Assembly (NCBI GenBank): GCA_913043005.1
Contig: CAJWKU010000019.1
Location: forward strand, 1 to 35,775
Source: an uncultured Cryomorphaceae bacterium
GTDB lineage: Bacteria; Bacteroidota; Bacteroidia; Flavobacteriales; Schleiferiaceae
DNA length: 35,775 nt
Reading direction: 5' to 3'
Under the pieces are notes generated by a model. The model was not told the DNA's origin. It was given only the letters and a program-made list of their open reading frames with translations, and made no database searches. The translations under genes were made by a program, and so were the position numbers. Positions 2,808-35,272 of this stretch are shown in pieces. Position 1 is the stretch's first letter, and each line of letters opens with the position of its first letter.

Positions 2808-3137
2808 ATGATCAATGTTTCCATTGAGGCCGCTAAAAAAGTGACATCTCTCATGAAAGAAGATGGTAAAAACACTGACTCTTCGTTTGTTCGAGTTGGT
2901 GTTAAAAGTGGTGGTTGTTCTGGATTGAGCTATGACATGGATTTTGTTGATCAAGCTAAAGATGGAGATCAACTCTTTCAAGAGAATGGCATTAAAGTTT
3001 TAGTTGAAAAAAAGAGCTTGCTGTACCTTATCGGAACGACATTAGAGTACAGTGGTGGACTTAATGGTAAAGGGTTTGCTTTTAATAACCCCAATGCCTC
3101 CCGAACATGTGGCTGCGGAGAAAGCTTTTCATTGTGA
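2808..3137 (+). CDS. sufA: SufA/HesB/IscA-type iron-sulfur carrier protein
   Basis: A-type carrier that receives Fe-S clusters from the SufBCD scaffold and passes them to apo-proteins. The 109-residue protein has the three conserved cysteines of the family: one in GGCSGLSY and two in the C-terminal CGCG motif (RTCGCGESF). It is the first gene of the suf operon, with a -7 box 23 bases upstream, and its TGA overlaps the GTG start of sufB (GTGA). The position before sufBCD is the usual place for this carrier in Bacteroidota. Naming it sufA rather than erpA or iscA rests on that context. Confidence 0.92.
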
Positions 3138-4573
3138 GCGATAATGATAAGATCATTGATGAGGTAACATCCAGTGATTACAAGTACGGTTTTTCGACAG
3201 AGATAGATTCTGACACAATAGATCCTGGCCTAAGCGAGGATGTTATTAGGCAGATATCTCTAAAAAAGGATGAACCACAATGGATGACGGATTGGAGATT
3301 AGATGCCTATAAGGTCTGGAAGGAAATGGATGAACCGGACTGGGCCAATGTGAGCTATTCAAAGCCTGATTTTCAAAATATATCTTACTATTCGGCTGTT
3401 AAGAAAAAACAATATGATAGTCTCGATGAAGTAGACCCTGAATTACTCAAAACATTTGAAAAATTAGGAATTAGCTTAGATGAGCAAAAAAGACTTTCTG
3501 GAGTTGCTATGGATATTGTAGTGGACTCAGTTAGCGTAGCTACAACATTTAAGAAAACGTTAAAGGAAAAAGGAATTATTTTTTGTTCTATGAGTGAGGC
3601 AATAAAGGAACATCCTGAATTGGTAAAAAAACACTTGGGAACTGTAATCCCGAAATCAGATAATTATTATGCCGCATTGAATAGTGCTGTATTTACAGAT
3701 GGGTCATTTTGTTACATTCCTAATGGTGTTAGATGTCCAATGGAACTTAGCACCTACTTCCGTATAAATGAAGCTGGGACAGGTCAGTTCGAGCGAACTC
3801 TGTTGATAGCGGACAAAGGGAGTTATGTTAGTTATTTGGAAGGGTGTACGGCACCGCAACGGGACGAAAATCAATTGCATGCTGCAGTAGTAGAATTAAT
3901 AGCTATGGACGATTCTGAAATCAAATATTCAACTGTCCAAAATTGGTTCCCAGGTGATTCTAATGGGAAAGGCGGGGTCTTCAATTTTGTCACCAAAAGA
4001 GGAATTTGTGAAACTCAAGCTAAGATATCATGGACTCAAGTTGAGACAGGGTCTGCGGTAACTTGGAAGTACCCTAGCTGTATTTTGAAAGGGGATAATA
4101 GCATAGGCGAATTTTATTCGGTAGCATTGACTAATAATTTTCAGCAAGCAGATACTGGAACAAAAATGTTACATCTTGGGAGCAATACCAAGAGCACAAT
4201 AATTAGTAAAGGAATAAGTGCTGGGAGAAGTCATAATAGCTACAGAGGTCTGGTTAGAATGGGGCCAAGAGCAAAAAATGCAAGAAACTTTTCTCAATGC
4301 GATTCTCTTTTGATGGGAGATAAGTGTGGGGCTCATACATTCCCATATATCGAAGTAAAAAATTCAACAGCTAAAACAGAACATGAGGCAACAACTTCAA
4401 AAATAGGTGAAGACCAAATTTTTTATTGCCAGCAAAGAGGTTTGAATCCTGAAGCGGCAATTGCCCTTATAGTAAATGGATATTGCAAAGATGTTTTAAA
4501 TCAATTACCGATGGAATTTGCGGTGGAAGCTCAAAAGTTATTAGCGATTAGTCTTGAGGGTTCTGTTGGATAA
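3134..4573 (+). CDS. sufB: Fe-S cluster assembly scaffold SufB
   Basis: Core scaffold subunit of the SufBC2D complex, which builds Fe-S clusters in the cytoplasm. The sequence follows the family throughout: an N-terminal [14 protein letters not shown] segment, [17 protein letters not shown], the beta-helix core, and the C-terminal [20 protein letters not shown] motif. An upstream in-frame ATG exists at 3107 inside sufA, but I chose GTG at 3134 because it gives the usual SufB amino terminus (VSDNDKI) and a four-base GTGA overlap with the sufA stop, the same coupling as sufC/sufD. This makes 479 residues, close to the normal length. sufC follows after 10 bases. Confidence 0.95.
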
Positions 4574-6721: not shown

Positions 6722-9700
6722 ATGAATCTCTCTTTCAAACAAGTCAATTCCCTTATGGGTTGGGTCACTTTCCTGATTGCATTATTCACTTACGTAAGTA
6801 CTTTAGAGCCTACGGTGAGTTTTTGGGATTGTGGTGAATACATTGCTACTTCAGTAAAGCTTCAAGTTGGCCATCCCCCTGGGGCTCCGGTGTTTCAATT
6901 AGTTGCAAATGTGCTTTCACAATTAGCCTTTGGAGATGTCTCAAGACAGGCTTTTTATGTAAATATGGTTTCAGGACTTTCTAGTGCATTTACAATTCCT
7001 TTTCTGTTCTGGACTATTACGATGCTTGGCAGAAAACTATTTGCTACAGTTGATATATCTAAAGGCCAAGAAATTATTTTGATAGGTTCAGGATTAGTAG
7101 GTGCTTTAGCATTTACATTCAGTGACTCATTCTGGTTTTCAGCTGTGGAGGGAGAAGTTTATGCAATGTCAAGTTGTTTTACAGCTATAGCTTTTTGGGC
7201 AGTTTTAAAATGGGAATCTGTCGTAGATTCAGACGAATACGCTAATCGTTGGTTACTCCTAATTGCTTACCTCACAGGGTTATCTGTCGGGATTCACATA
7301 CTGGTTTTCTTAACAATTCCATCAGTTGTAATGATCTATTTCTACAAGAAATTCCCTGAGGTGAATTGGAAGAAATGGGTTCTTGCTAATGCTGCCTCAA
7401 TAGGAATATTAGCGCTAGTTTTTGCAGTTATAATTCCTTTTGTTCTTTCGCTTTTTGGCTGGTTAGAAATCACTGCTGTGAATTCACTTAGTATGCCTAA
7501 AAATTCAGGTTCTTTTATTGCAGTCTTATTGTTAGGTGGGTTTATTTACTTTGGAATACGTTGGGCAAAGAGAAATAACCGGCCATTGATTTCACAAGGT
7601 ATTCATGCTTTAGTTTTTCTTCTTATTGGTTATTCTAGCTTTATCGTTTTAGCTGTCAGATCTAATGCAAATACTCCCATCGATGAGAATAATCCAGAAG
7701 ACGCCATGGCTCTTCTTTCTTATTACAATAGAGATCAATATGGTGATTGGCCTATTTTATTTGGACAAAGCTTTAATAGTCAGCTAGACAGTAAAAAGCC
7801 TTATACAGATGGACCTCCTGCATACGCGTTTAGTAAGGAGTCTGGTGAATATGAAATTACCAATAATGGAAAAGCATCAAAACCTAATTATTCAAAAAAT
7901 GATATTAGTTTCTTCCCAAGAATGTGGTCTGATCAGGCAAATCATGTTGAAAATTATCAAAAACTTATGGGGGTTAAAAAGACAGATAAACTGGAATTTA
8001 AAGACCATTTTAGATTCTTTATGGATTACCAGGTTGGTCAAATGTGGTTTCGGTACTTCATGTGGAATTTCTCAGGAAGACAAAATGATGATCAGAATAG
8101 ATATGAATTAACCAAGGGCAATTGGATTACCGGAATATCATTCATTGATAAGATGAGACTTGGGCCACAAGACAATTTGCCCGCACATTTTCTAAGTAAC
8201 CCCTCGCGAAATGTTTATTTTGGACTCCCCCTTATCCTGGGATTAGCGGGACTTTACTTCCAGGCTAAGCGCGATAAAAGGAATGCTTGGGTCGTTTCAT
8301 TATTATTCCTATTTACAGGGCTAGCTATTGTAGTTTATACAAATCATAAACCTTTTGAACCTAGAGAAAGAGATTATGCCTTTGTAGGATCATTCTATGT
8401 TTTTGCAATATGGATTGGTATAGGAGTTATTGCTATTTATGAATGGTTAGGTAAATACAGAAGCTCAATATCTGCATCAATAATAACGGTTATAGCATTA
8501 GCAATTCCTTCTCTAATGGCGGCTCAGAACTGGGACGACCACGACCGAAGTGATCGGTATACAGCCAGAGAGATTGCAAAAATGTATTTAAATAGCTGTG
8601 AACCAAATGCTATTCTTTTCACGAATGGGGATAATGATACTTTCCCGTTATGGTATGTTCAAGAGGTTGAGGGATATCGAACAGATGTAAGGATTGTCAA
8701 CTTGTCTTTATTAAATACCGATTGGTATATTGATATGATGAAGAGAAAATTTTATGATGGGGATGCTGTTCCTTTTACTTTAGAGAAAAAGGATTATGTT
8801 CAGGGGACTCGAGATGTTCTTTATTATCAAGATTTAAAAATATCTGGAAGATGGTACGCTCAAGACTTCATAGATTATGCTTTGCGTAATGATGATGGTG
8901 TTTTTTTCACAGCATTTCCAAACACTCAGAGTCCAAAAAAATTACAGTTTTTCCCGATGAAGAAATTTCGTATACCAGTTGACAAAAGTGCGGTTATTTC
9001 AAATGGTGTTGTGTTAGATTCATCAAAAATTGTCGATTTTATTGATTGGAATTGGAATTCCAATGTAATCTCAAAAAGAGATCTCATGTTGATAGATTTG
9101 ATTTCGAATAATAATTGGTCAAGGCCAATTTATTTTTCTACCACTGTGGGAAGCTCGGCTAGTTCTTTCTTTTGGCTGCAAAAGTATTTTCGCCTGGAGG
9201 GGCTTGCGTACAGGTTTGTTCCAGTAGTAACAGAAGGATCTGGAAATCAGTTTGATTTCGGCTCGGTAAATGCTGATAAAATGCTATCTGTAATGTATAA
9301 TCCTGAAGGCAATGAAAGTAAGTTCAACTTTGGGAATATGGAAAAGCCAGATGTATTTCTAGATGAGACAGTTAGAAGATCTAGTTTCAATTTGCGTATT
9401 AATTATGGGAGACTCGCTTCCGAACTTTCTAGTTTAGGAAGAACGGACGAAGCATTGAAAGTTTTAGATTTTGCTATGGAAAAAATGCCTGTGAATAAAT
9501 TGGGTTATGATTATTTCTTCCTGAACCTAATAGAAGGATATTACCAGGCTGGCGCTAAGGAAAGAGCTATGAATTACGTACAGGATTTTTCTAATGCAAT
9601 GGAAGAAGAATTGAGATACTATGCTCAGTTTAAGGGTTCGGATAAAAGAGCTATTCAAAATGAAATCCAGACCGATTTGCAATTCATGCAAATGCTTGCT

Positions 9701-9808
9701 AGAATGCTTATGCAATATGAATATAATAATGAGCCCTTGACTCAGGAAGAATATAAAAATGTTGAGTTGATCAGACTCTATGAGGAACTTGCTGAATTAT
9801 GCAGTTGA
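6722..9808 (+). CDS. DUF2723 multi-pass membrane protein, GT-C/O-mannosyltransferase-like, with C-terminal TPR-like region
   Basis: Large inner-membrane protein (1028 residues) of the DUF2723 family, which is related to protein O-mannosyltransferases of the GT-C fold. The first loop after TM1 holds EPTVSFWDCGEYIA (WDCGEY at 35-40) with an Asp/Glu pair, the kind of acidic residues used by GT-C enzymes, followed by HPPG at 51-54. Residues 1-320 and about 500-610 hold many hydrophobic segments. A soluble region follows, with TNGDNDTFPLWY, a family hallmark. The end, about 900-1000, is helical and TPR-like (LSSLGRTDEALKVLDFAMEKMP). It probably transfers a sugar from a polyprenyl-phosphate donor to an exported acceptor. 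The polyprenyl-P-mannose synthase at 23992-24717 could supply the donor. The acceptor is unknown; function is inferred from family membership. Confidence 0.85.
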   Translation: MNLSFKQVNSLMGWVTFLIALFTYVSTLEPTVSFWDCGEYIATSVKLQVGHPPGAPVFQLVANVLSQLAFGDVSRQAFYVNMVSGLSSAFTIPFLFWTITMLGRKLFATVDISKGQEIILIGSGLVGALAFTFSDSFWFSAVEGEVYAMSSCFTAIAFWAVLKWESVVDSDEYANRWLLLIAYLTGLSVGIHILVFLTIPSVVMIYFYKKFPEVNWKKWVLANAASIGILALVFAVIIPFVLSLFGWLEITAVNSLSMPKNSGSFIAVLLLGGFIYFGIRWAKRNNRPLISQGIHALVFLLIGYSSFIVLAVRSNANTPIDENNPEDAMALLSYYNRDQYGDWPILFGQSFNSQLDSKKPYTDGPPAYAFSKESGEYEITNNGKASKPNYSKNDISFFPRMWSDQANHVENYQKLMGVKKTDKLEFKDHFRFFMDYQVGQMWFRYFMWNFSGRQNDDQNRYELTKGNWITGISFIDKMRLGPQDNLPAHFLSNPSRNVYFGLPLILGLAGLYFQAKRDKRNAWVVSLLFLFTGLAIVVYTNHKPFEPRERDYAFVGSFYVFAIWIGIGVIAIYEWLGKYRSSISASIITVIALAIPSLMAAQNWDDHDRSDRYTAREIAKMYLNSCEPNAILFTNGDNDTFPLWYVQEVEGYRTDVRIVNLSLLNTDWYIDMMKRKFYDGDAVPFTLEKKDYVQGTRDVLYYQDLKISGRWYAQDFIDYALRNDDGVFFTAFPNTQSPKKLQFFPMKKFRIPVDKSAVISNGVVLDSSKIVDFIDWNWNSNVISKRDLMLIDLISNNNWSRPIYFSTTVGSSASSFFWLQKYFRLEGLAYRFVPVVTEGSGNQFDFGSVNADKMLSVMYNPEGNESKFNFGNMEKPDVFLDETVRRSSFNLRINYGRLASELSSLGRTDEALKVLDFAMEKMPVNKLGYDYFFLNLIEGYYQAGAKERAMNYVQDFSNAMEEELRYYAQFKGSDKRAIQNEIQTDLQFMQMLARMLMQYEYNNEPLTQEEYKNVELIRLYEELAELCS

Positions 9809-9960: not shown

Positions 9961-11568
9961 TTGAAATTAATCACTGAGTTTTTTCAAAGGTCTCAAGGGA
10001 CCATTAAGGATGACATTTTATCGGGGATAACAGTTGCTTTAGCTCTTGTCCCAGAGGCTGTTGCTTTTGCATTTGTAGCAGGGATACCTCCAGTAGTAGG
10101 CCTCTACGGAGCATTTATAATGGGAATTGTCACTTCGATATTTGGAGGTCGACCAGGTATGATTTCAGGAGCGACAGGAGCAATGGCTGTAGTTATGGTT
10201 CACTTGATCAATGAGGGTAACGCTTTGGCCTCGGGAGGGGAATTGATCGGATTACAATACTTATTTGCAACTCTTATCTTGACAGGAATTTTTCAGACTC
10301 TTGCTGGATTTTTAAAGATGGGAAAATTTGTTCGAATGATACCTAGTTCAGTAATGATGGGGTTTGTGAATGGTTTAGCGATTGTAATATTTTTATCTCA
10401 GTTAGAGATGTTTAAAACTCAGGGAGAATGGCTTACCGGACCCTCTCTTTATATTATGCTTGGACTGGTCATTCTAACAATGTTAATTATGTTTTTTTTA
10501 CCTAAACTGACTAAGAATATACCAGGAGCATTAACAGCTATTGTCTTCGTTTCATTAATAGTGATTCTCGGAGATATAGACACGTCATCAGTAAAGTCAT
10601 TTATTAATGAAGGCGGTGGTAAAGGAATTAAAGCAGGCTTGCCAAGTTTTAATATTCCTCTTATCTCATTGAATTGGCAGACACTGCAATTTATAGTTCC
10701 TTATGCTTTAATTCTTGCAGCAATAGGTTTAATCGAGTCATTAATGACACTGAATCTTGTTGATGAATTGACAGAGACCCGAGGTAGTGGGAATCGAGAA
10801 TGTATTGCTCAAGGTGGGGCAAATATTTTAAATGGACTTTTTGGTGGGATGGGAGGATGCGCCATGATCGGTCAATCAATAATAAATATTAAATCAGGAG
10901 GTCGAGGAAGATTGTCAGGTATTGTTGCAGCTTTGGCTTTATTATGCTTTATTCTTTTTGCTTCTGCATATATTGAAATGATTCCTATAGCAGCGTTGGT
11001 AGGGGTTATGTTCATGGTGGTTATTGGAACATTTGCATGGAATTCGTTAAAGATTTGGAATAAAGTGCCTTTGACAGATGTCATCGTAATTATTATTGTA
11101 ACCGCAATGACTGTGCTTTTTGATTTAGCCATTGCTGTAATTTCGGGAGTAGTTATTTCAGCATTGGCATTTTCTTGGCAGAATGCTTTAATGATAAGAG
11201 CAAGAAAACATATTGATAAACATGGAATCAAGCATTACGAAATTTTTGGTCCTTTGTTTTTTGGATCTATCAATTTATTTAATTCCAAGTTTGATGTTAA
11301 AAATGATCCTAAAGAAGTGGTAGTAGATTTTGCAGAATCTAAAGTTGTAGATCAATCAGCGATCGAGGCGTTAAATAAATTGGCAGATCGATACCTTAAC
11401 AATGGTAAGTCAATTCATTTACGTCACCTTTCTCCCGATTGCGTAAAATTGATTAAAAAAGCAGAAAAAATCTGTGATGTTAATGTATTAGAAGATCCAA
11501 ATTATTTTGTCTCGATAGACAATTATAGAAGGGCTATGACTAAAATACACTCAGAAAGTGATTTTTAA
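9961..11568 (+). CDS. SulP family inorganic anion transporter with STAS domain, bicarbonate-type candidate
   Basis: Inner-membrane SLC26/SulP transporter of 535 residues. The SulP signature is at about residues 31-52 (PEAVAFAFVAGIPPVVGLYG), followed by a membrane domain of about 14 helices to residue ~415 and a C-terminal STAS domain with DQS at 464-466, the position phosphorylated in some STAS proteins. The only in-frame start giving a full amino terminus is TTG at 9961, with AAGGA three bases before it. The next gene, 90 bases on, encodes an iota-class carbonic anhydrase candidate. Together with the known bicarbonate transport by BicA and DauA-type SulP proteins, this suggests bicarbonate or a related anion rather than sulfate. 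Substrate cannot be fixed from sequence. Two further SulP genes lie at 30960 and 33455. Confidence 0.92.
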   Translation: MKLITEFFQRSQGTIKDDILSGITVALALVPEAVAFAFVAGIPPVVGLYGAFIMGIVTSIFGGRPGMISGATGAMAVVMVHLINEGNALASGGELIGLQYLFATLILTGIFQTLAGFLKMGKFVRMIPSSVMMGFVNGLAIVIFLSQLEMFKTQGEWLTGPSLYIMLGLVILTMLIMFFLPKLTKNIPGALTAIVFVSLIVILGDIDTSSVKSFINEGGGKGIKAGLPSFNIPLISLNWQTLQFIVPYALILAAIGLIESLMTLNLVDELTETRGSGNRECIAQGGANILNGLFGGMGGCAMIGQSIINIKSGGRGRLSGIVAALALLCFILFASAYIEMIPIAALVGVMFMVVIGTFAWNSLKIWNKVPLTDVIVIIIVTAMTVLFDLAIAVISGVVISALAFSWQNALMIRARKHIDKHGIKHYEIFGPLFFGSINLFNSKFDVKNDPKEVVVDFAESKVVDQSAIEALNKLADRYLNNGKSIHLRHLSPDCVKLIKKAEKICDVNVLEDPNYFVSIDNYRRAMTKIHSESDF

Positions 11569-11592
11569 TTTTAGTAAATATTATAATGGTAT

Positions 11593-11600
11593 TATTTTTG
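11593..11600 (+). promoter_or_regulatory. Possible -7 box for the carbonic anhydrase gene
   Basis: TATTTTTG fits TAnnTTTG and lies 58 bases before the ATG at 11659, in a very AT-rich leader. It could allow expression apart from the upstream sulP. In such an AT-rich stretch a chance match is likely. Confidence 0.3.
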
Positions 11601-11658
11601 AATAAAAGGTAAAATCAAAATCTTAATTATATTTAAAAATAAAAAATAAAACTATATA

Positions 11659-12123
11659 ATGATAACTAAAGATGATGTAATTCAGGTCCAAAAATTATGG
11701 GGCGCAGGCGTTGTTAAAATAGGCTCATTAAAGGATCAAAGATCGAATTGTGAGGATTTTACAAGTGCGTTTTTAGATGATCTTTATGGTTTTGAGCTGG
11801 GAGCCGTTTTGTTTAAGCCAACAAAATGTGAAGTAGAGCAATTTAGACCTTCAAAAGCTGACGCTTTATCATACTTTATTGCTGGAGATAACCGTGCATG
11901 TAATGAAGATAAAGGGTTTGCAATCCAGCCATGGACGAACGTAAGATTTGAAAATTCAAACTTTATTTTGGAAGAGAATCGTGCAATTGCAATGGGGAAC
12001 TATTTTTTCACTGATCTCGATAATAACGAAGCTAAAGTTGAGTATACTTTTGGATATAAATTGGTTAATCAGAAGTTAAAAATTGACCTTCATCATTCAT
12101 CATTTCCCTATAGTCACAGTTAG
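11659..12123 (+). CDS. Iota-class (COG4337, SnoaL-like) carbonic anhydrase candidate
   Basis: Small cytoplasmic protein of 154 residues without signal peptide. It matches what I know of the COG4337 family, which includes the iota carbonic anhydrases described from diatoms, Anabaena and Burkholderia and which has a NTF2/SnoaL-like cone fold. Visible family features are WGAGVVKIG (14-22), FKPTK, ALSYFIAGDN, DKGFAIQPW, AMGNYFFTD, EYTFGY and the C-terminal HHSSFPY (145-151) containing the family hallmark HHSS. Some iota enzymes work without a bound metal and catalyse CO2 + H2O to bicarbonate + H+. Such proteins have often been mis-annotated as phosphoribosyl-AMP cyclohydrolase or as DUF4440/CaMKII-association proteins. 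The neighbouring SulP transporter fits a CO2/bicarbonate role. Family membership is firm to me; catalytic activity is inferred. Confidence 0.82.
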   Translation: MITKDDVIQVQKLWGAGVVKIGSLKDQRSNCEDFTSAFLDDLYGFELGAVLFKPTKCEVEQFRPSKADALSYFIAGDNRACNEDKGFAIQPWTNVRFENSNFILEENRAIAMGNYFFTDLDNNEAKVEYTFGYKLVNQKLKIDLHHSSFPYSHS

Positions 12124-12191
12124 TAATTTAAGTGCATATATCTCTTGTTAATTTAGTTGATCTTCAAAACATATCTATACTTGCTTGGATA

Positions 12192-12199
12192 TAAATTTG
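12192..12199 (+). promoter_or_regulatory. Possible -7 box in the gap before the DUF2490 gene
   Basis: TAAATTTG fits TAnnTTTG, 122 bases before the ATG at 12322. Just downstream an inverted repeat TGCTTG/CAAGCA (12202-12207 and 12216-12221, eight-base loop) would form a hairpin in the leader. Nothing else stands out in the 198-base gap between 12124 and 12321. Confidence 0.35.
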
Positions 12200-12321
12200 A
12201 GTGCTTGCACTGTGTCAAGCAGGATGTAGAGAAAGTCATTATTATATGTGATTGAGAACATCGAGTTAATGGTATCATTGACAACAACATTTTTAAGTCT
12301 GCTTTTCTAAAATTAAAAAGT

Positions 12322-12990
12322 ATGAATCTTAGATTAAGACATTTTTTTTGCGGATTAGCTTTTTTTTTAGCTCTGACGCCAAACTCTGCGGATGCTCAAG
12401 ATAGTGATCTTGGGAATTGGTTGATTTATATCGGAAGTAAAAAAATAAGTCAAAATTGGAATTGGCATCATGAAATCCAGAATCGAAACTACAATACTTT
12501 TGGCGACTTGGAGCAGCTTTTACTTAGGACTGGACTAGGTTATACTCTAAGAGATAAAAATCAAAATTTGCTTTTAGGCTATGGTTACATTTTATCTGAG
12601 AATTATAATGATTTAGATGAGAAAACTCCTATCAATGAGCATCGAATATTTCAACAATTTATTTCAAAACAAACAATTAACGATTTTAAGTTAGGTCATA
12701 GATTTCGACTAGAGCAGAGATTTATAGAGTCAGAATTTAAAATACGTTTCCGCTATTTTTTAAATGCAAGGCTTCCGCTCAAAATAGGTGGGAACAATAG
12801 ATTTTATTTATCAGGTTATAATGAATTTTTTCTCAGTTTTGAAGAGGATTTTTTTGATAGAAATCGACTTTATGGAGGCATCGGATATAAATTATCAGAA
12901 GGGATTAACCTCGAGTTAGGTTATATGAATCAATTTTTAGGGTTTTCCAGTCGTGATCAGTTAAATCTGATTATGTTCTTGAATCTATAA
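12322..12990 (+). CDS. DUF2490 family outer-membrane protein
   Basis: Protein of 222 residues with a signal peptide ending near residue 25 (ALTPNSADAQ). The mature part is a run of alternating beta strands with aromatic ends (GNWLIYIG, NWNWHHEIQNRNY, LLLRTGLGYTL, NLLLGYGYI, FRLEQRFIE, FRYFLNARLPL) and a final strand NLIMFLNL, the pattern of the DUF2490 family, which is predicted to form an outer-membrane beta barrel. It lies 198 bases after the carbonic anhydrase gene and is convergent with hppD at a gap of seven bases. Function of the family is not established; a channel or porin role is only a guess. Confidence 0.78.
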   Translation: MNLRLRHFFCGLAFFLALTPNSADAQDSDLGNWLIYIGSKKISQNWNWHHEIQNRNYNTFGDLEQLLLRTGLGYTLRDKNQNLLLGYGYILSENYNDLDEKTPINEHRIFQQFISKQTINDFKLGHRFRLEQRFIESEFKIRFRYFLNARLPLKIGGNNRFYLSGYNEFFLSFEEDFFDRNRLYGGIGYKLSEGINLELGYMNQFLGFSSRDQLNLIMFLNL

Positions 12991-12997
12991 ATCTGTT

Positions 12998-14137
12998 TTA
13001 TAGCGTTCCTCTATTTTCTTGTTCTCGTTCAATTGCTTCAAACAATGCCTTGAAATTCCCTTTCCCAAATGATTTGGCTCCTTTTCTTTGGATTATTTCA
13101 AAAAATACAGTTGGTCTATCCATTAATGGCTTTGTGAATATTTGTAATAAATACCCTTCCTCATCTCTATCAATTAAAATCCCTAAATCCCTAAGAGGAC
13201 TGAGTTTTTCATCAATTTCTCCAACTCTATCTATAACATCATCATAATACGATTTAGGTACTTGAAGGAAATCAACACCTCGATTACGTAATTCGGTTAC
13301 TGTATGAATTATATCGTCAGTAGCTAATGCTAAGTGCTGAACTCCAGGGCCATTATAGAAGTCTATGTATTCCTCAATCTGTGATTTTTTTCTACCCTCT
13401 GCTGGTTCGTTAATTGGGAATTTAATTCGACCATTTCCATTAGTCATAACCTTTGACATCAAGGCAGTATACTCTGTTGAAATATCTTTATCATCAAAGG
13501 ACACGAGTTGAGCAAACCCCATAACTTCTTTATAATACTTTACCCAAGTATTCATCTCATTCCATCCAACATTTCCAACCATGTGGTCGATAAACCTAAG
13601 TCCTGTACTGTTCGGATTATATTCTGAGGAATATTTAATAAAACCGGGTAAAAATGTGCCATTATAATTGGACCTTTCTACAAAAACATGGACGGTGTCA
13701 CCATATGTTTTTATGCCGGAAAGAATTACATAGCCTTGATCATCTTTTATTTTATAAGGCTCAAATGCAGACTCAGCGCCTCTGCTTGTAGTTTCTTTCC
13801 AGCTTTTTGTTGCATCATCAACCCAAATCGCCATATTTTTAACACCGTCACCGTGTTTGACAAGATGCTCGTTTATTTCATTTTCAGTAATTAGAGATGA
13901 GGTTAAAACTAAAATAATTTTATCTTGTTTCAAGACATATGAAGTTCTGTCTTTAAGTCCAGTTTCTAGGCCTGCGTATGCATAATCTTGAAATCCAAAT
14001 GCTGTCTTAAAATAGTGTGCAGACTGTTTAGAATTACCCACATAAAACTCAATATAATCGGTCCCATTTAAAGGAAGATAATCCTCAGCTTCAATATTTT
14101 CTATTGGTAGCTTCAAGGAAGTGTTATCGTAATTCAT
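12998..14137 (-). CDS. hppD: 4-hydroxyphenylpyruvate dioxygenase
   Basis: Converts 4-hydroxyphenylpyruvate to homogentisate with O2 and Fe(II), the second step of tyrosine catabolism. The 379-residue protein has two VOC domains. The iron ligands can be placed as His185 (FIDHMVGNVG), His268 (GVQHLALATDD) and Glu347 (FFEIIQR). The C-terminal GKGNFKALFEAIEREQ segment that closes the active site is also present. It lies 44 bases after hmgA on the same strand, giving the order trhO-hmgA-hppD, so HppD makes the substrate for the enzyme encoded just upstream. An AAGAAAAGA tract just upstream of the ATG may help initiation. Confidence 0.96.
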   Translation of the reverse strand: MNYDNTSLKLPIENIEAEDYLPLNGTDYIEFYVGNSKQSAHYFKTAFGFQDYAYAGLETGLKDRTSYVLKQDKIILVLTSSLITENEINEHLVKHGDGVKNMAIWVDDATKSWKETTSRGAESAFEPYKIKDDQGYVILSGIKTYGDTVHVFVERSNYNGTFLPGFIKYSSEYNPNSTGLRFIDHMVGNVGWNEMNTWVKYYKEVMGFAQLVSFDDKDISTEYTALMSKVMTNGNGRIKFPINEPAEGRKKSQIEEYIDFYNGPGVQHLALATDDIIHTVTELRNRGVDFLQVPKSYYDDVIDRVGEIDEKLSPLRDLGILIDRDEEGYLLQIFTKPLMDRPTVFFEIIQRKGAKSFGKGNFKALFEAIEREQENRGTL

Positions 14138-14181: not shown

Positions 14182-15336
14182 TCAATCAAGCCAGGATTTC
14201 CAATATTCTTTAAGTTCAATGTCTAGTGCTGCCTGGGTCACTTTTAAGGGGTTAAAGGTATCAACCATAACCGCTAGTTCTGAGGTTTCTTTTTGACCAA
14301 TGGATCTTTCATAAGCCCCAGGGTGAGGACCATGAGGAATACCTCCCGGATGTAGACTGATATAACCATTCTCAACATGATTTCTTGACATAAAGTCACC
14401 ATCAACATAGTACAATACTTCATCTGAATCTATATTACTATGATTATATGGGGCAGGAATAGATTTTGGGTGGTAGTCGTAAAGTCTTGGTGCAAAAGTG
14501 CAGATTACAAAATTATTACCCTCAAACGTTTGATGAACAGGAGGAGGCTGATGAATACGTCCTGTTATTGGTTCAAAATTTAAAGCAGAAAATATATACG
14601 GAAAGCAATAGCCATCCCACCCGACAACATCAAAAGGGTGGCTTGCATAGCTTATGTCATGGAGAAGTCCTTCTTTTTTTATTTTAATAAGAAATTCACC
14701 CTTTTTATTATTTGTTTTCAGATTTTTAGGCAATTTTATATCTCGCTCACAAAAGGGCGAATTTTCAAGAAGTTGACCGAATTCATTCCGATATCTTTTA
14801 GGAGTAACGATGGGAGATTTGCTCTCGATAATGAATAATTTATTATGATCATTATCAAATTCAATTTGATAGATTGTCCCTCTCGGAATAATCACATAAT
14901 CTGCATATTTAAATCTTAATTCACCAAACATGGTTCTAAGAGTCCCCTCCCCTTTATGAATAAAAAGGACCTCATCACAGTCGGAGTTTTTATAAAAGTA
15001 TTCGGCTTGCCCTTTTTTCGGTGAGGCAAGATCTATTTGTACATCATTATTGAAAAGCATCGGGTCTCGCGACTCGATAAAATCTTCTTTTGGTTTAATA
15101 TTAAACCCTTGAAGCATCCTACTGACGATATTATTATTTATCGCTGACTTTGGATTTAGATCAATACTATCTCCTATTTTCGATACCATTGTTGGACGGT
15201 GATAGTGATAAAGAAGAGAGCTTACACCATGGAAACCTTCTGTTCCAAATAGTTGCTCGTAATAGAGGTCTCCATTTGATTTTTCGTGAATAGTATGTCT
15301 TTTCTCAGGTATGGAACCAAGTTTATGATATAACAT
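14182..15336 (-). CDS. hmgA: Homogentisate 1,2-dioxygenase
   Basis: Opens the ring of homogentisate to maleylacetoacetate. The 384-residue cupin-type protein has the family amino terminus (YHKLGSIPEKRH), the N-terminal cupin with VIIPRGTIYQIE, and the C-terminal metal-binding stretch HPGGIPHGPHPGAYE starting at residue 329, followed by SELAVMVDTFNPL. Length is that of the shorter bacterial form. The gene starts five bases after the trhO stop and is followed by hppD, so the tyrosine-to-maleylacetoacetate steps are encoded together. The later enzymes (maleylacetoacetate isomerase and fumarylacetoacetase) are not in this window. Confidence 0.93.
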   Translation of the reverse strand: MLYHKLGSIPEKRHTIHEKSNGDLYYEQLFGTEGFHGVSSLLYHYHRPTMVSKIGDSIDLNPKSAINNNIVSRMLQGFNIKPKEDFIESRDPMLFNNDVQIDLASPKKGQAEYFYKNSDCDEVLFIHKGEGTLRTMFGELRFKYADYVIIPRGTIYQIEFDNDHNKLFIIESKSPIVTPKRYRNEFGQLLENSPFCERDIKLPKNLKTNNKKGEFLIKIKKEGLLHDISYASHPFDVVGWDGYCFPYIFSALNFEPITGRIHQPPPVHQTFEGNNFVICTFAPRLYDYHPKSIPAPYNHSNIDSDEVLYYVDGDFMSRNHVENGYISLHPGGIPHGPHPGAYERSIGQKETSELAVMVDTFNPLKVTQAALDIELKEYWKSWLD

Positions 15337-27607: not shown

Positions 27608-27630
27608 AAATAATTTAATACTAATTATTT
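27608..27630. terminator. Weak AT-only hairpin between polA and the antiporter gene
   Basis: AAATAATT (27608-27615) and AATTATTT (27623-27630) form a perfect 8-bp inverted repeat with a seven-base loop between two convergent stop codons. It could act as a bidirectional terminator, but an all-AT stem is weak. Confidence 0.3.
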
Positions 27631-28902
27631 GATTCTAGATTCTCCTTCTAGCACCTCTGGGTCGATGCTACCAGTTTCTCTAATAACTTCCCCAAGGGTG
27701 CGATGATCATCTTTTTCTTGGTGGCGAACCATTCCCCAGGCCATTATACTACTGCTTACAAGTATTATATAGAGTAAAATCCCATTATCAAATTGAGTTA
27801 TGGTCATGTTTTCAGGGATTGCATAAAACAATAAAATTGTAATTAAACCTCTAGGAGCCAAATAGTTTAACAACAGGGTAGGCTTCGAAACAGTCCATGA
27901 TACTGCCATTTTACGAATTTGATAAATTCCAACTAATGAAAGAGCCGCAAAGAAAATAACAAGCGGATTCCCTAAAGAAGTTAGATCAATACTGTAACCA
28001 AAAACAACGAAAAAAAATGTTCTTACGATAAACGCAGTTTCCCTTGTGATTAATTTAAAATCCTTGAGAAGTGAATTGACTATATCAGCCTTGAGTAATC
28101 GTTGAAGTCTTCCCGGAAAGAAGAGCTTTGGATTATTGAGAATCATTCCGAAAATAAGGATTACTAGCAAAGAGCTTAAATGGAGTAATTTCCCAACTGC
28201 ATAAAGAAGGATTAAAACAGAAATTAAAAGAAATAATTTAAGTTGTGTTTTTATGTTTTGAAGTAGAAGAACGAGCAAGTAAGAAAAAACAGCAGAGACG
28301 ATAACACTAATTCCAAAAGACCATCCAAACTGCAATAACCACTCACTGACGCTACCGCTGGGGTTCTCAAATCCTTCGACAAGGAAATAAAATAGCATAA
28401 TTCCAATTATATCGCTGAAAGTGGATTGATATATCATGAACTCTTTTAAGTCTTTTTTGAAATATTCAATGCTAGGAATAACGATTGCAGAACTTAAAAT
28501 GCTTAAAGGAACCGCATACAGTAGAGCACTTTCCCATGTGGCATCCATACCTACATGAAATAGTCCTGCAAGAAATAAAACGGTGAATCCCATCTCAAAT
28601 AGTGTTAGCATCAGGCTCCTGCCTACGAGACTTCTTCTATCTCTACTAAATTCAAGATCTAATGCAGCTTCGAGAACTATCATTATTAGACCTATGCTTC
28701 CTAGGATCTCAAGTGAAGGTTGAACGTTAGGTTGGGGAACAGAAAAGTAGTTCCCGACAGTGCTTAGTATCATGCCCATTCCAAGAAGCATTAAAACACT
28801 TGGAACTTTCGTTCTCTTTGCGAGCAGATTAAATAGGTAAGACACTATAACAATTGCTGCTAGAGCGATAAGAACAGATGGAGTGTTGATTAAATTGCTC
28901 AA
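27625..28902 (-). CDS. Cation:proton antiporter (CPA family)
   Basis: Inner-membrane Na+/H+ or K+/H+ exchanger of 425 residues. About twelve hydrophobic segments are visible; key family spots are RTKVPSVLMLLGMGM near the start, LEAALDLEFSRD in the third helix region, SSAIVIPS and the ion-binding-helix region STFSDIIGIMLFYF, followed by APRGLITILLFYAIPE. The C terminus is a short polar tail with no TrkA_N or TrkA_C domain. The only full-length start is TTG at 28902. Which cation it carries cannot be told. It is followed upstream on the same strand by typA with a 92-base gap. Confidence 0.85.
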   Translation of the reverse strand: MSNLINTPSVLIALAAIVIVSYLFNLLAKRTKVPSVLMLLGMGMILSTVGNYFSVPQPNVQPSLEILGSIGLIMIVLEAALDLEFSRDRRSLVGRSLMLTLFEMGFTVLFLAGLFHVGMDATWESALLYAVPLSILSSAIVIPSIEYFKKDLKEFMIYQSTFSDIIGIMLFYFLVEGFENPSGSVSEWLLQFGWSFGISVIVSAVFSYLLVLLLQNIKTQLKLFLLISVLILLYAVGKLLHLSSLLVILIFGMILNNPKLFFPGRLQRLLKADIVNSLLKDFKLITRETAFIVRTFFFVVFGYSIDLTSLGNPLVIFFAALSLVGIYQIRKMAVSWTVSKPTLLLNYLAPRGLITILLFYAIPENMTITQFDNGILLYIILVSSSIMAWGMVRHQEKDDHRTLGEVIRETGSIDPEVLEGESRIK

Positions 28903-28994: not shown

Positions 28995-30770
28995 TCAATT
29001 TTTATTTTTTTTAAGCTTTCTTAAGCGTAAACTTTTTGGAGTTATTTCAACTAACTCATCTGATTGAATGTATTCCAGAGCTTCTTCTAAACTTAGCTTT
29101 ATTGCTGGAGCTATTCGAACCTTGTCGTCTGTTCCAGAAGCTCTGACATTTGTTTGCTTTTTAGCTTTTGTTAGGTTGACATCTAAATCACTCCCTCGAG
29201 TGTGCTCGCCGCAAATTTGTCCTGCATAAATATCTTCTCCAGGCTCAATGAAAAATCGACCTCTATCTTGAAGACGGTCGATGGAGTATGCTATTGACAT
29301 TCCTTGCTCCATAGAAACTAGTGAGCCATTAGTCCTTCTTGGAAGATTTGGTTTTAATGGTTGGAATTCAATAAAACGATGATTCATGATTGCTTCACCA
29401 GAAGTAGAAGTCAAAAGTGAGTTTCGTAATCCAATCAATCCTCTAGATGGAATTTGAAATGTTAAAATCATGCGGTCACCTTTAGGTACCATATTTAGTA
29501 ACTCGCCTTTTCTTAGTGTTGCCATTTCTACTGCTGTTCCGCTCATGGTTTCGGGTAAGTCGATGACTAATTCTTCAACAGGCTCACATTTAACACCATC
29601 TATTTCTTTTATAATTACTTCAGGATTTCCAATTTGAAGTTCGTAGCCTTCTCTTCTCATAGTTTCAATTAAAACCGACAAATGAAGCACTCCTCTACCA
29701 AAGATTCTAAAAGTATCAGCGGAATCTGTTAATTCCATTTTTAAGGCTAAGTTTTTTTCTAATTCTTTTTCAAGTCGGTCTCGTAAATGCCTGGAGGTCA
29801 CATACTTTCCTTCCTTTCCAAAAAACGGAGAGTCGTTGATTGTAAATATCATGCTCATGGTAGGTTCATCAATAGATATTGGAGGTAGACCTTCAGGTGT
29901 TTCCCAGTCAGCTATGGTATCACCAATTTCAAACCCCTCGATTCCATTAAACGCACATATTTCTCCTACACCAACTTTCTCTGTTCGGACTTTACCTAGC
30001 CCCTCGAATATAAATAGTTCTTTAATTTTTGTTTTAATTTTTTTGCCATCACGTTTCACAAGACAAACAGGCATGTTTTCCGATAGTTCTCCTCTATGAA
30101 CTCGTCCAATTGCCATTCTTCCTGTATATGAAGAGAAATCTAATGAAGTTATCAGCATTTGGGGAGTCCCCGGATTTGCTTGAGCTGTAGGGACATACTT
30201 TAAAACCATATCAAGCAATGGTTCAATTGTATCCGTTCTCTCGTTCCAGTTATTGCTCATCCAATTTTGTTTGGCTGATCCATAAACACATGGAAAATCA
30301 AGTTGCTCTTCTGAAGCATCTAGAGAAAACATTAAATCAAAAACAGCCTCATGTGCAGATTCAGGATCACAATTTAGTTTATCAACTTTGTTTACGACTA
30401 CAATTGGCTTTAATCCTAATTGAAGAGCTTTTTGCAGTACAAAACGTGTTTGAGGCATCGGACCTTCAAAAGCATCTACAAGCAATAAAACACCATCTGC
30501 CATATTTAAAACTCTTTCAACTTCCCCTCCGAAATCGGCGTGTCCAGGAGTATCAATAATATTGATTTTAACATCTTTGTAAGTGACGCTTACATTTTTG
30601 GAAAGGATAGTTATTCCGCGTTCCCTTTCTAAATCATTACTATCAAGAATTAATTCACCCGTTTCTTGGTTAGATCGAAATAGCTGACAATAATGAAGAA
30701 TTTTATCAACCAGAGTAGTCTTTCCATGGTCGACGTGAGCAATAATTGCAATATTTTTTATTTCAGTCAT
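28995..30770 (-). CDS. typA: Ribosome-associated GTPase TypA/BipA
   Basis: Translational GTPase that helps 50S assembly and stress or cold adaptation. The 591-residue protein has G1 AHVDHGKTT at 11-19, G2 in RERGITI, G3 [16 protein letters not shown]4 NKVDK, an EF-G-like domain II, and the C-terminal TypA-specific part ([37 protein letters not shown]). The DFGGEVERV motif separates it from LepA. A -7 box lies 31 bases before the ATG. Confidence 0.97.
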
Positions 30771-30959: not shown

Positions 30960-32543
30960 CTATTTAATTGTTTGAAAAAATTGATAAAAGCTTTCGGGAT
31001 TATCCATGACTCCTTTTGACCAGTTCACTCGAATGTTGATTTTTCTATCTTTAGATTTATCTAAAAAGTCTTCTAATATTTCTACAATATCATCATCAAT
31101 ATAAACGGTTTTTCTAACGTCTAATTCTAAAAAAGTATTATTTGGAAGATTGTCTAACTCTTTAAGAATTGCACCTTTATTAAAAAATGTCACTTCTTCA
31201 GCAAGAGTCATTTTTATTCTACTTGTCCCATTACTTTTATCTTCTAAATGTAAAAAATGGGAGTTTTGAAAACTTTTAACTATTACGATTAGAGCACTTA
31301 CTGCAAGACCAAACATTATCCCTAATAGTAAATTCGTAAAAACAATACCAATAATTGTTACAATAAAAGGCACAAATTGTTTCCACCCTTTTTCAAACAT
31401 AACTTTAAATAACGCGGGTTTTGCCAGTTTATAGCCCACAATGAATAGTATCGCCGCTAAAACAGATAATGGTATCTTATTTAAAAAAGTCGGGATTAAA
31501 ACAACAGAAATTAATAGCAAGAATCCGTGAAGTATGCTAGCCATTTTTGTTTTTCCTCCAGACTGAATATTAGCGGAGCTCCGCACAATTACCTGAGTAA
31601 TGGGTAATCCACCGATTAGACCGGAAATTATATTTCCTGACCCCTGAGCTAGTAATTCTCTATTTGTTGGAGTAACACGTTTTGTCGGATCTAATTTATC
31701 TGTAGCCTCAACACATAACAAAGTTTCAAGGCTTGCTACTAAAGCTATCGTGAAAGCAGTAATCCAGACTTGAGAGTTTGTAATAGCTTTGAAATTGGGA
31801 AAACTAAACTGGGAAAAAAACGAACTCGCATCTTCGGGCACTGGAACACTGACTAAATGGTTAGAAGAAATACTCCAAAAATCGTTTCCAGAGGTTATTA
31901 AGAAATAGATAATCCCAACCACTACAGCAACTAAAGGACCTTGAATAATTTGGAATATTTTACCTTTTTTTGAAAGTACATTTCCCCAGATTATCAAAAT
32001 AAATAAGCTAATCATACCAATGACTGCTGCGCCAGGGTTAATAAAACTAAAGGCATTGGTGATTCCTGAGAACGTATTTTCTCCATTTTCTTGAAAAAAC
32101 GCAAAGTCTCCTCCTGGATCAGTGTCATAGCCAAAAAAGACAGGGATTTGCTTTAGAATAATAATAATTCCAATACCAGTTAACATGCCTTTTATGACGG
32201 ACGAAGGGAAGTAGTATGCTATAAGACCCATTTGAAGTAATCCAAAAAGAATTTGTATTGCACCGCCTAAAACAACAGCTAACAAGAAGCTTTCAAATCC
32301 CAGATCGCCAATAGCTACTAATACAATGGCAGCAAGGCCTGCAGCTGGCCCGCTAACTCCTAGTGAAGATCCACTTAAGGTTCCTACTATAATGCCTCCT
32401 ACTATTCCCGCTATTAATCCTGAAAATAATGGGGCTCCACTCGCTAGTGCGATTCCTAAACATAAAGGGAGTGCTACGAAAAAGACGACAATACTTGATG
32501 GGATATCGGCTTTAAGATTTTTGAAAGGATTTATATTATTCAT
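30960..32543 (-). CDS. SulP family inorganic anion transporter, second copy, with Ser-less STAS domain
   Basis: SulP membrane protein of 527 residues. An in-frame TTG lies at 32558, but ATG at 32543 gives the expected start (MNNINPFKNLKADIPSSIVV). The transmembrane domain has ALPLCLGIALASGAPLFSGL and the second signature GLIGGLPITQVIVRSSANI. The C-terminal STAS domain is degenerate: where others have D-Q-S it reads IDDD (482-485), so the phospho-acceptor Ser is missing. This architecture resembles SulP proteins that in many marine bacteria sit beside a carbonic anhydrase gene, but here the partner is a TetR regulator 29 bases upstream. Bicarbonate is a plausible substrate; sulfate or others cannot be excluded. 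Confidence 0.9.
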   Translation of the reverse strand: MNNINPFKNLKADIPSSIVVFFVALPLCLGIALASGAPLFSGLIAGIVGGIIVGTLSGSSLGVSGPAAGLAAIVLVAIGDLGFESFLLAVVLGGAIQILFGLLQMGLIAYYFPSSVIKGMLTGIGIIIILKQIPVFFGYDTDPGGDFAFFQENGENTFSGITNAFSFINPGAAVIGMISLFILIIWGNVLSKKGKIFQIIQGPLVAVVVGIIYFLITSGNDFWSISSNHLVSVPVPEDASSFFSQFSFPNFKAITNSQVWITAFTIALVASLETLLCVEATDKLDPTKRVTPTNRELLAQGSGNIISGLIGGLPITQVIVRSSANIQSGGKTKMASILHGFLLLISVVLIPTFLNKIPLSVLAAILFIVGYKLAKPALFKVMFEKGWKQFVPFIVTIIGIVFTNLLLGIMFGLAVSALIVIVKSFQNSHFLHLEDKSNGTSRIKMTLAEEVTFFNKGAILKELDNLPNNTFLELDVRKTVYIDDDIVEILEDFLDKSKDRKINIRVNWSKGVMDNPESFYQFFQTIK

Positions 32544-32572
32544 AATTTTTTTTATCAATTCAAAGAGAAAAA

Positions 32573-33279: not shown

Positions 33280-33454
33280 TTAAGAACGTAAAGCTATGTT
33301 TTTAAAATATCAATATTGTTTTTAGTATTTAGGTAAGCTAATTTCTTGCTCTTTTGTTTAGAATAAACTTGTTTTTTTAATTAATACTCCGAATTGTAAC
33401 AAATGGCGAGAATTTCACGATGATGAATTGACTTTTGTTACCTTGAACTCTACT

Positions 33455-35272
33455 ATGAAAAATTTATTATCAAATTTTCGTGGAGATCTATTTGGAGGTA
33501 TTACTGCAGGCATTGTTGCTCTTCCTCTGGCTCTCGCCTTTGGAGTTCAATCTGGATTAGGGGCTACAGCAGGGCTCTACGGCGCTTTATTTATTGGTTT
33601 CTTTGGCGCTTGGTTCGGAGGCACTCCAACCCAGATAAGTGGTCCTACAGCTCCAATGACTGCTGTCAGTATGGGGGTTATTGCCACAATTATAGCTATG
33701 TTGGATGGTCAGCTAGATAAGGCATTGCCAATAATTTTATCAGTTTTTCTTTTAGCAGGAATTATCCAAGTTTTAATGGGAGTTTTAAAATTAGGCATAT
33801 ATGTAAAATATATTCCATATCCTGTTGTTTCTGGATTTATGACAGGGATTGGTGTAATAATATTAATTACACAAATATTCTCATTAGTTGGATATATGCC
33901 AATAAATGATAAGTCATTAATAGATTCATTTATACCTCAGGCTAAAGAGGTGATTCTTGAAAATATCTTGGCAGAAGAAATAGGTGAGGGACTGCAAGTA
34001 TTAAAAGATCTTGAACAAACGTCCTTAGTGGCAAAAAAAATTGGGCCGGATGAAATTTATATGGAGGCTCGTGCTTTAATGAAGAATGATTCATCTGGGG
34101 TTATCGGAAGTTTAAAGTATATGCCGCGTGCGCTTTCTAACATTGATAGATTTAATTTGATCTTGGCAATTCTTACTATTTTCGTTATTTACTCTTTTAA
34201 AAGGGTTACAAAAAAAATCCCAAGTACTCTAGTCGCACTCATATTAATCACCAGTTTGGCATATTTTTCGGGTCTGGAATATCAATCAATAAGTGATATT
34301 CCAAGGGGGTTCCCAGTCCCACAATGGACAATTTTTACTGATTTAAATGTATTTCTTATTTTACCTTTTATCGGTTCAGCATTTATGCTCGCAATTTTGG
34401 GAGCAATTGATTCTCTTTTAACTTCAGTAGTCGCAGATAATATGACAAAAACTCGTCACAGACCCAACAAAGAATTAATCGGTCAAGGCATAGGAAATAG
34501 CATTGCTGCAATTTTTGGAGGTATTCCTGGAGCAGGAGCTACTATTCGCACCGTAGTCAATATTAAATCGGGTGGCAAAACAAAAATATCAGGCGCAATA
34601 GCTTCAATTTTTTTACTCTTGGTTATTCTTTTAGTCGGTCCTTTTGCTGAGCAGATTCCGATGGCTGTTCTCGCTGGAATTTTATTTACAGTAGGAATTA
34701 GTGTTATGGATTTTAAGGGGCTGCATTCGTTAAGGTTTATACCAAGAACAGATGCAGTTGTATTGATCATAGTTTTTTTACTAACTGTATTTTGGGATTT
34801 AATTTTTGCAGTTGGAATAGGGCTGGTTTTATCATCGCTTTTTTTTATGGCAAAAATGGTGGATACGGTTTTGGATAACGCCAATGTTAAAGGTTATGAA
34901 GATCCATCAAATGAAAATGATCATTTATTTATTAAAACTATAGATGGGCCTATCTTTTTTGGCGCAACAAATGAACTTACTGCGCTTTCAAGAAAACTTC
35001 CAAATTCGGCAAAAACCTTATGTATTGACTTAACACGGGTGCCATATATTGATCAATCAGGACTATTTGCTATGGAAGACATTTTTCTTAGTCTCAATGA
35101 ATCTTCCATAGAGGTGCGCTTAATAGGGCTCAACTTGCAACCGGAAAACAGATTTAGAGATTTGAGGATAGTCCCAGACGCAGTTCCGGAGCATTTGATT
35201 TTTAATGATTTGGACTCCGCTATTACATATCAAGCCGATCGAGAGAAAACTATTGCCGAAGAAAGAAAATGA
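33455..35272 (+). CDS. SulP family inorganic anion transporter, third copy, with enlarged hydrophilic loop
   Basis: SulP membrane protein of 605 residues. TTG at 33428 is in frame but ATG at 33455 gives the normal beginning (MKNLLSNFRGDLFGGITAG). The membrane domain has ALPLALAFGVQSGLGATAGL and GGIPGAGATIRTVVNI, and the C-terminal STAS domain has YIDQSGLFAME with Ser535. Between about residues 145 and 232 lies a charged, probably helical loop (for example EVILENILAEEIGEGLQVLK) that is about 50 residues longer than in the other two copies of this window. It is divergent from tetR-sulP and may be under the same regulator. Substrate unknown; sulfate or bicarbonate are the usual choices. Confidence 0.9.
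   Translation: MKNLLSNFRGDLFGGITAGIVALPLALAFGVQSGLGATAGLYGALFIGFFGAWFGGTPTQISGPTAPMTAVSMGVIATIIAMLDGQLDKALPIILSVFLLAGIIQVLMGVLKLGIYVKYIPYPVVSGFMTGIGVIILITQIFSLVGYMPINDKSLIDSFIPQAKEVILENILAEEIGEGLQVLKDLEQTSLVAKKIGPDEIYMEARALMKNDSSGVIGSLKYMPRALSNIDRFNLILAILTIFVIYSFKRVTKKIPSTLVALILITSLAYFSGLEYQSISDIPRGFPVPQWTIFTDLNVFLILPFIGSAFMLAILGAIDSLLTSVVADNMTKTRHRPNKELIGQGIGNSIAAIFGGIPGAGATIRTVVNIKSGGKTKISGAIASIFLLLVILLVGPFAEQIPMAVLAGILFTVGISVMDFKGLHSLRFIPRTDAVVLIIVFLLTVFWDLIFAVGIGLVLSSLFFMAKMVDTVLDNANVKGYEDPSNENDHLFIKTIDGPIFFGATNELTALSRKLPNSAKTLCIDLTRVPYIDQSGLFAMEDIFLSLNESSIEVRLIGLNLQPENRFRDLRIVPDAVPEHLIFNDLDSAITYQADREKTIAEERK

Follow-up and report, generated by a model that had tools for sequence, protein, structure and literature searches.

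Beta-class carbonic anhydrases (beta-CAs) are zinc enzymes, and gene pairs are known in which a SulP transporter stands directly beside a beta-CA; BicA, the bicarbonate transporter of cyanobacteria, is a member of the same SulP family and carries its STAS domain. As for the iota class, the closest described enzymes belong to COG4337, and they are all2909 from Anabaena and Bn86287 from Bigelowiella (PDB 7c5v-7c5y); metal-free iota-CAs have been proposed to suit metal-poor oceans (PMC8132391; this and the other papers named here are cited from excerpts). Finally, in the zinc-sparing isozyme systems regulated by Zur (the gamma-CA Cam, B. subtilis ytiB, folE2, COG0523), a CA isozyme has COG0523, a GTP cyclohydrolase and a Fur-family regulator as neighbours, and the iota class is not among these systems as the excerpts describe them (PMC2770081, PMC6103462). 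The literature searched held no published test of the role of iota-CAs in bacteria; likewise, no published case was found in which a zinc-type operon contains an iota-CA or an iota-CA takes the place of a beta-CA, in a search that was thin on subscription journals. The present analysis concerns a stretch of 35,775 nucleotides from an uncultured Cryomorphaceae bacterium (contig CAJWKU010000019.1), hereafter the window, whose numbering is used for its features; it encodes a COG4337 iota-CA (iCA) of 154 amino acids. Unlike all2909 and Bn86287, this iCA lies in a SulP-CA-DUF2490 cassette, in a bacterium with relatives that have a beta-CA at that position, and in-place replacement of the beta-CA by the iota-CA at this cassette is, as a whole reading, regarded as highly probable.

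The three genes of the cassette lie on the forward strand at the positions given by the initial annotation, as confirmed by their open reading frames: a SulP/SLC26-type anion transporter with a STAS domain (9961..11568; TTG start, 535 amino acids), the iCA (11659..12123), which starts 90 bases past the SulP stop, and, after a gap of 198 bases, a DUF2490 protein, predicted to be a secreted outer-membrane beta-barrel (12322..12990). On the left the cassette site is bordered by a TMEM260-like gene (6722..9808, forward strand), and on the right by 4-hydroxyphenylpyruvate dioxygenase (HPPD; 12998..14137, reverse strand; TIGR01263, 452 bits). In a genome of the same genus, G010 (locus L102), the order is TMEM260 - SulP - beta-CA - DUF2490 - HPPD - hmgA-like - trhO, which is that of the window with beta-CA in the iCA slot; a second one, G012 (L104), has the same order as far as its contig goes, which breaks off inside SulP. 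Since two genomes have the block at this chromosomal site, with beta-CA for iCA, the three-gene grouping is not a chance one. The DNA flanks of the window are 93.5% identical to G012 and 86-89% to G010, and their alignment to both runs to 11601-11602 and resumes at 12394, with the sliding identity dropping from about 11522; the segment in between (11603..12393), which takes in the first 24 codons of DUF2490, cannot be aligned with the beta-CA segment of either genome. By this alignment evidence, one CA class has taken the place of the other at a shared site. The cassette itself looks like an insertion between the TMEM260-like gene and HPPD, because TMEM260 abuts HPPD, with a gap of 71-105 bp, in all 12 other genomes of the genus that were read, which are without the cassette; HPPD is present in 18 of the 22 genus genomes and the cassette in four of these 18, and G017 and G021 were left out of the locus reading. 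Beside HPPD, the window also has a homogentisate-dioxygenase-like gene (14182-15336, reverse strand), with a score of 57 bits against an hmgA equivalog cut-off of 511 bits.

Regarding the direction of the exchange, the beta-CA was likely the earlier state, because G010 and G012 are collinear through it (87.9% identical) and the window is nearer to G012. The order could also have been the reverse, with a cassette that first held iCA and a G010/G012 lineage that took up the beta-CA: the more distant G016 has TMEM260 - iCA - DUF2490 at the same site, with no SulP, which counts against a beta-CA origin and permits an older iCA state, and its iCA differs from that of the window (78% DNA identity) as much as the flanks do (73-78%). 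This order would, however, require a second change back to iCA, since the window, although closer to G012 than to G010, does not have the beta-CA that these two have in common; the same conflict occurs in the second genus described below (g6), where beta-CA is common to both beta-CA genomes and yet one of them, G026, is nearer to the iCA genome in its flanks. An iCA-first history is thus considered improbable, and replacement of beta-CA by iCA is preferred.

The second genus, g6, shows an independent in-place swap, as judged by the same kind of comparison: G052 (L116) has iCA between a gene for 313 amino acids and an aldose-epimerase-like gene, where G026 (L110) and G060 (L111) have beta-CA; the flanks of L116 are 84% and 68% identical to those of G026, and the CA segment gives nothing above background. 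A third swap was considered in genus g5, between the iCA of G059 and the beta-CAs of G025 and G043, and it was not borne out: G059 and G043 have one CA-adjacent gene in common (70% over 1758 bases), with the CA on opposite sides, and the G025 locus has nothing in common with G059.

As for the enzyme, the 154-residue protein gave no match in a Pfam scan; its similarity to the sequences of solved iota-CAs is clear with phmmer (4e-28 for 7c5v; 3e-79 for 7c5x, summed over three repeats), and the NCBIfam model NF047901, "metal-independent carbonic anhydrase", finds it with 105 bits (3e-30). It is a single domain like all2909 (about 155 residues). Its AlphaFold2 model (pLDDT 92.6) is a cone-shaped alpha+beta barrel of NTF2 type, and the top PDB matches of the model are 7c5x, 7c5y and 7c5v, with TM scores of 0.92-0.93 (normalised to the model). 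The HHSS motif corresponds to residues 145-148, and T55, Y72, H145 and S147 align, at constant offset in the phmmer alignment, with T106, Y124, H197 and S199 of all2909; fold, Thr/Tyr/His/Ser set and HHSS are thus common to the window protein and to the described COG4337 enzymes. In Anabaena all2909, alanine at Thr106, Tyr124, His197 or Ser199 abolished activity; in the Bigelowiella enzyme, changes of His and Ser merely reduced it, 4- and 8-fold (PMC8132391). All 35 aligned relatives keep these four residues, and the second His of HHSS varies, being His in 28 of them. Homology to solved iota-CAs, the predicted fold and the catalytic quartet together assign the protein to the COG4337 iota-CAs, and the initial annotation, which had proposed this class and a structural comparison with the solved enzymes, is borne out on both counts.

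That the iCA has CA activity and stands in for the beta-CA in the cell is held with strong confidence. Its working without metal is probable, by analogy, to a slightly lesser degree than the replacement itself: this property is carried over from two characterised homologues that are 37-40% identical, which weighs against the reading, as does the NF047901 equivalog cut-off of 350 bits, which the protein misses. The low NF047901 score would also suit a non-catalytic binder of bicarbonate, a sensor or a scaffold, and the NTF2 fold is known to serve many functions (PMC8425729); nevertheless, residues that are essential or important by mutation are kept in every aligned relative, and the protein occupies the place of a beta-CA, so that such a binder is very improbable and an active enzyme is retained.

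The window SulP has PF00916 (200 bits, 6e-59) and the STAS domain PF01740 (31 bits), both above the gathering score, and is 91% identical to the SulP that precedes the beta-CA in G010. The suggestion that it is of the BicA type found no support: with 200.5 bits against a cut-off of 880 it lies far under the BicA model NF050096, and it is nearer to 5da0 (354 bits), which is taken here to be SLC26Dg, than to 6ki1 (171 bits), presumably BicA, whose entry is titled low affinity sulfate transporter. Because SulP often accompanies CA, this one may carry bicarbonate, or else an anion that is exchanged against it; the chances are considered even. As for DUF2490, it matches PF10677 above the gathering score (178 bits, 2e-52), and its model (pLDDT 82.6) has an N-terminal helix followed by 11 strands; the structural matches of the model are weak and for the most part involve membrane beta-barrels, NanC among them (TM 0.49-0.50), from which an outer-membrane barrel is predicted. 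Its proposed role as the entry for inorganic carbon is a guess, and an unlikely one.

The wider context of the iCA was obtained from the best 80 of at least 551 relatives found in a scan of genome contigs, all from Bacteroidota and largely marine by their titles. Their neighbourhoods follow two patterns: in the first, the iCA is accompanied by varying sets of MerC, GTP cyclohydrolase I, CobW/COG0523, a gene for about 170 amino acids, PhoX, DUF1826 and a Fur-family regulator; in the second, by SulP, DUF2490, an S9 peptidase or other genes. Upstream regions were searched for dyads, which revealed a box, TGCAAC-N3-GTTGCA (arms with at most one mismatch), in 35 of the 77 regions and in none of five shuffles, and with a weight matrix built from these sites the 80 loci were sorted by hand into 42 box-bearing, 33 box-free and five unclear or truncated ones (L018, L019, L051, L053, L059). 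The score is 19 or more directly before the operon at 37 of the 42 box-bearing loci, while at the other five the box is in front of a nearby gene; 30 of the box-free loci have at least 100 bases upstream, where the top score is 3.4. Control of the window iCA by the box was rejected, given that the top score over the whole window is 5.1 against 19 or more at the sorted boxes, and the window groups with the box-free loci; across the genome of the window, with two mismatches at most allowed, the pattern is found at 34 places, compared with 21 for the reversed control, and none is exact.

With same-strand neighbours counted up to two genes away, SulP is found near 7 of the 33 box-free iCAs, and DUF2490 again near 7, whereas none of the 42 box-bearing loci has either; one or the other is present at 13 of the 33 box-free loci and neither at 20. 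Conversely, the gene of about 170 residues is near 29 of the 42 box-bearing iCAs (for example L025, 6462-6971), MerC near 19 and FolE near 16, and all three are absent from the 33 box-free loci, while CobW is near 12 of the 42 and 1 of the 33. The gene of about 170 residues had no Pfam match in the one representative scanned, and the idea that it is a decayed beta-CA was unsupported (hhalign probability 0.3%). For comparison, 20 beta-CA loci of relatives (the CA of L108 uncounted), 12 iCA loci (the CA of L117 uncounted too) and, from 20 of the 35 box-bearing marine Bacteroidota genomes that have a beta-CA, the locus of that enzyme were fetched; in the last set, SulP is within two genes of the beta-CA at 16 of 20 loci and DUF2490 at 6 of 20, and a 17th SulP, at L134, overlaps its neighbour and falls outside the counting rule. 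Since SulP and DUF2490 are near beta-CAs and near box-free iCAs and never near box-bearing iCAs, gene order indicates that they go with whichever class of CA does the housekeeping. Accordingly, of the dissolved-inorganic-carbon unit first proposed, the functional association of a CA with SulP and DUF2490 stands, supported by the beta-CA of the same cassette in relatives and by the beta-CA loci just described, while linkage of these genes with COG4337 proteins as such, which was also expected, is present at some of the box-free loci alone and was rejected as a general rule. The window resembles the known SulP-beta-CA pairs in having SulP directly beside the CA; it differs from them in that the enzyme is iota, and in some loci DUF2490 is a third member.

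The distribution of beta-CA follows the box. No iCA genome of the box-free group (0/33) has a beta-CA over the cut-off, compared with 35 of 41 box-bearing ones (L025 left out), a contrast with a Fisher p of 3e-15 that is uncorrected for kinship; among the unclear genomes, L018, L019, L051 and L053 have no beta-CA and L059 has one, and grouping those four with the box-bearing genomes gives 35 of 45. In addition, the box-bearing L047 belongs to a genome, represented by contig L165, with a remnant of the enzyme: between SulP (1143-2687) and DUF2490 (2977-3588), the sole PF00484 match of this genome spans 2712-2906 (20.5 bits, under the cut-off, with one stop), and a profile of 39 beta-CA frames finds there a 53-residue piece (2757-2915, profile positions 159-208) with 38 bits, the next of 232 pieces having 1.6; tblastn with single beta-CA sequences did not pick it up. 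In this genome, then, the end of a beta-CA persists in the slot flanked by SulP and DUF2490, with the box-bearing iCA elsewhere, and the arrangement is a possible intermediate.

Among 100 relatives, 13 have iCA, and beta-CA is present in 2 of these 13 versus 63 of the 87 others (p = 1.3e-4); within the genus, the figures are 0 of 3 with iCA and 16 of 19 without (p = 0.013). At least two genomes are in both this set and the survey set (L014 = G016, L052 = G052). The own genome of the window, 93% complete, has no match to PF00484, and PF00194, the alpha-CA family, is absent from all 22 genus genomes. The iCA thus seems to have become the housekeeping CA here, given that SulP and DUF2490 go with that enzyme and that the searches, which did not extend to gamma-CAs, turned up neither an alpha- nor a beta-CA in the genome.

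Genome size is a confounder of these counts, since the box-free genomes are small (1.4-2.7 Mb), and it could be argued that the iCA lies beside SulP by chance, with no joint function, and that beta-CA is missing through streamlining or incomplete assembly, all the more as most box-free loci have neither SulP nor DUF2490 beside iCA. Against this, box-bearing genomes of up to 2.7 Mb retain beta-CA in 9 of 13 cases, the slot was replaced in two genera, and the contrast within the genus goes the same way; mere adjacency is therefore considered quite unlikely, and a functional replacement is preferred. Several points weigh against it nonetheless: two of the 13 relatives with iCA retain a beta-CA; G005, G014 and G015, of the same genus, show neither enzyme; a missing CA can reflect assembly loss or another CA, many genomes being metagenome-assembled or single-cell ones; the claim to be the sole CA extends to the alpha and beta classes, for the reason given above; and the iCA tree mixes box-bearing and box-free copies (17 changes versus 25 in shuffles), with well-supported branches that force one change only. 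The paired test on box loss had one pair only, and the sole iCA of G020, one of the three iCA-bearing genomes of the genus, is a divergent copy (41% identity) close to the end of a contig.

Two further SulP genes are present in the window (30960-32558, reverse strand, and 33428-35272, forward strand), and the former is directly before TypA (28995-30770) and an Na/H exchanger (27625-28902). The order in L094, of the same genus, is SulP - beta-CA - TypA - Na/H exchanger, and its SulP is 46% identical to the window one; because L094 has a beta-CA between SulP and TypA, a beta-CA may be missing at this site of the window as well.

As for the box-bearing operons, many of them resemble the Zur-regulated systems in having a CA isozyme beside COG0523, GTP cyclohydrolase and a Fur-family regulator; the window copy differs from those systems, being without box and operon and the sole CA found in its genome among the alpha, beta and COG4337 types. 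COG0523, GTP cyclohydrolase isozymes, gamma-CA and DUF1826 are linked to Zur clusters in proteobacteria (PMC2770081), and since the genes of the operon are the company of such clusters, a response to zinc is inferred for it by analogy. The same operon might instead answer another metal or signal, in which case zinc sparing would be the wrong reason for the swap: its regulator is assigned to the Fur family only, with a weak match to solved Fur proteins, and all 23 FolE copies keep CEHH, the motif presumed to be their zinc site. Moreover, the exact box, TGCAACNNNGTTGCA, occurs once per whole genome in L040, L035 and L055, at the iCA operon, so that the regulator is a local one; a broad box regulon was not found, with 11 and 16 relaxed matches in two genomes against 8 and 7 in the background. 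What speaks for zinc is the joint presence of COG0523/CobW proteins, with CxCC in 30 of 33, GTP cyclohydrolase isozymes and DUF1826; in the genus of the window, CobW gave weak matches only, the best in uninformative frames of about 1,100 residues. Another signal is judged rather unlikely, and zinc scarcity as the cause of the swap is slightly favoured.

Taken together, the iCA would hydrate CO2 in the cytosol without metal and feed bicarbonate to biosynthetic carboxylases, SulP would move or balance bicarbonate, and DUF2490 would be an outer-membrane barrel of unassigned cargo. Because iCAs of this subfamily have, in other genomes, the appearance of a back-up next to genes of the zinc-starvation type, a route in three steps is likely: the iCA would have started as a regulated, zinc-sparing spare in a Fur-family/CobW/FolE operon, with an intact beta-CA elsewhere in the genome; it would then have been freed of operon control, becoming a constitutive housekeeping enzyme in the place of the beta-CA; and, at last, the zinc enzyme would have been lost. 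That pelagic Bacteroidota did so repeatedly, turning a zinc-starvation back-up into their housekeeping CA in at least two swaps in the same gene slot with loss of the zinc enzyme, is given somewhat better than even chances.

In conclusion, the in-place swap is strong natural evidence that iCA does the job of beta-CA in the cell, and it provides a closely matched genome pair, with flanks 93.5% identical, in which the zinc-sparing idea is directly testable. It also indicates that SulP and DUF2490 belong to a housekeeping CO2/bicarbonate unit, of which DUF2490 is a candidate part. The finding suggests that ocean bacteria exchanged a zinc CA for a metal-free type; if so, the scarcity of zinc in the ocean would have produced bacteria whose main or only CA needs no metal.

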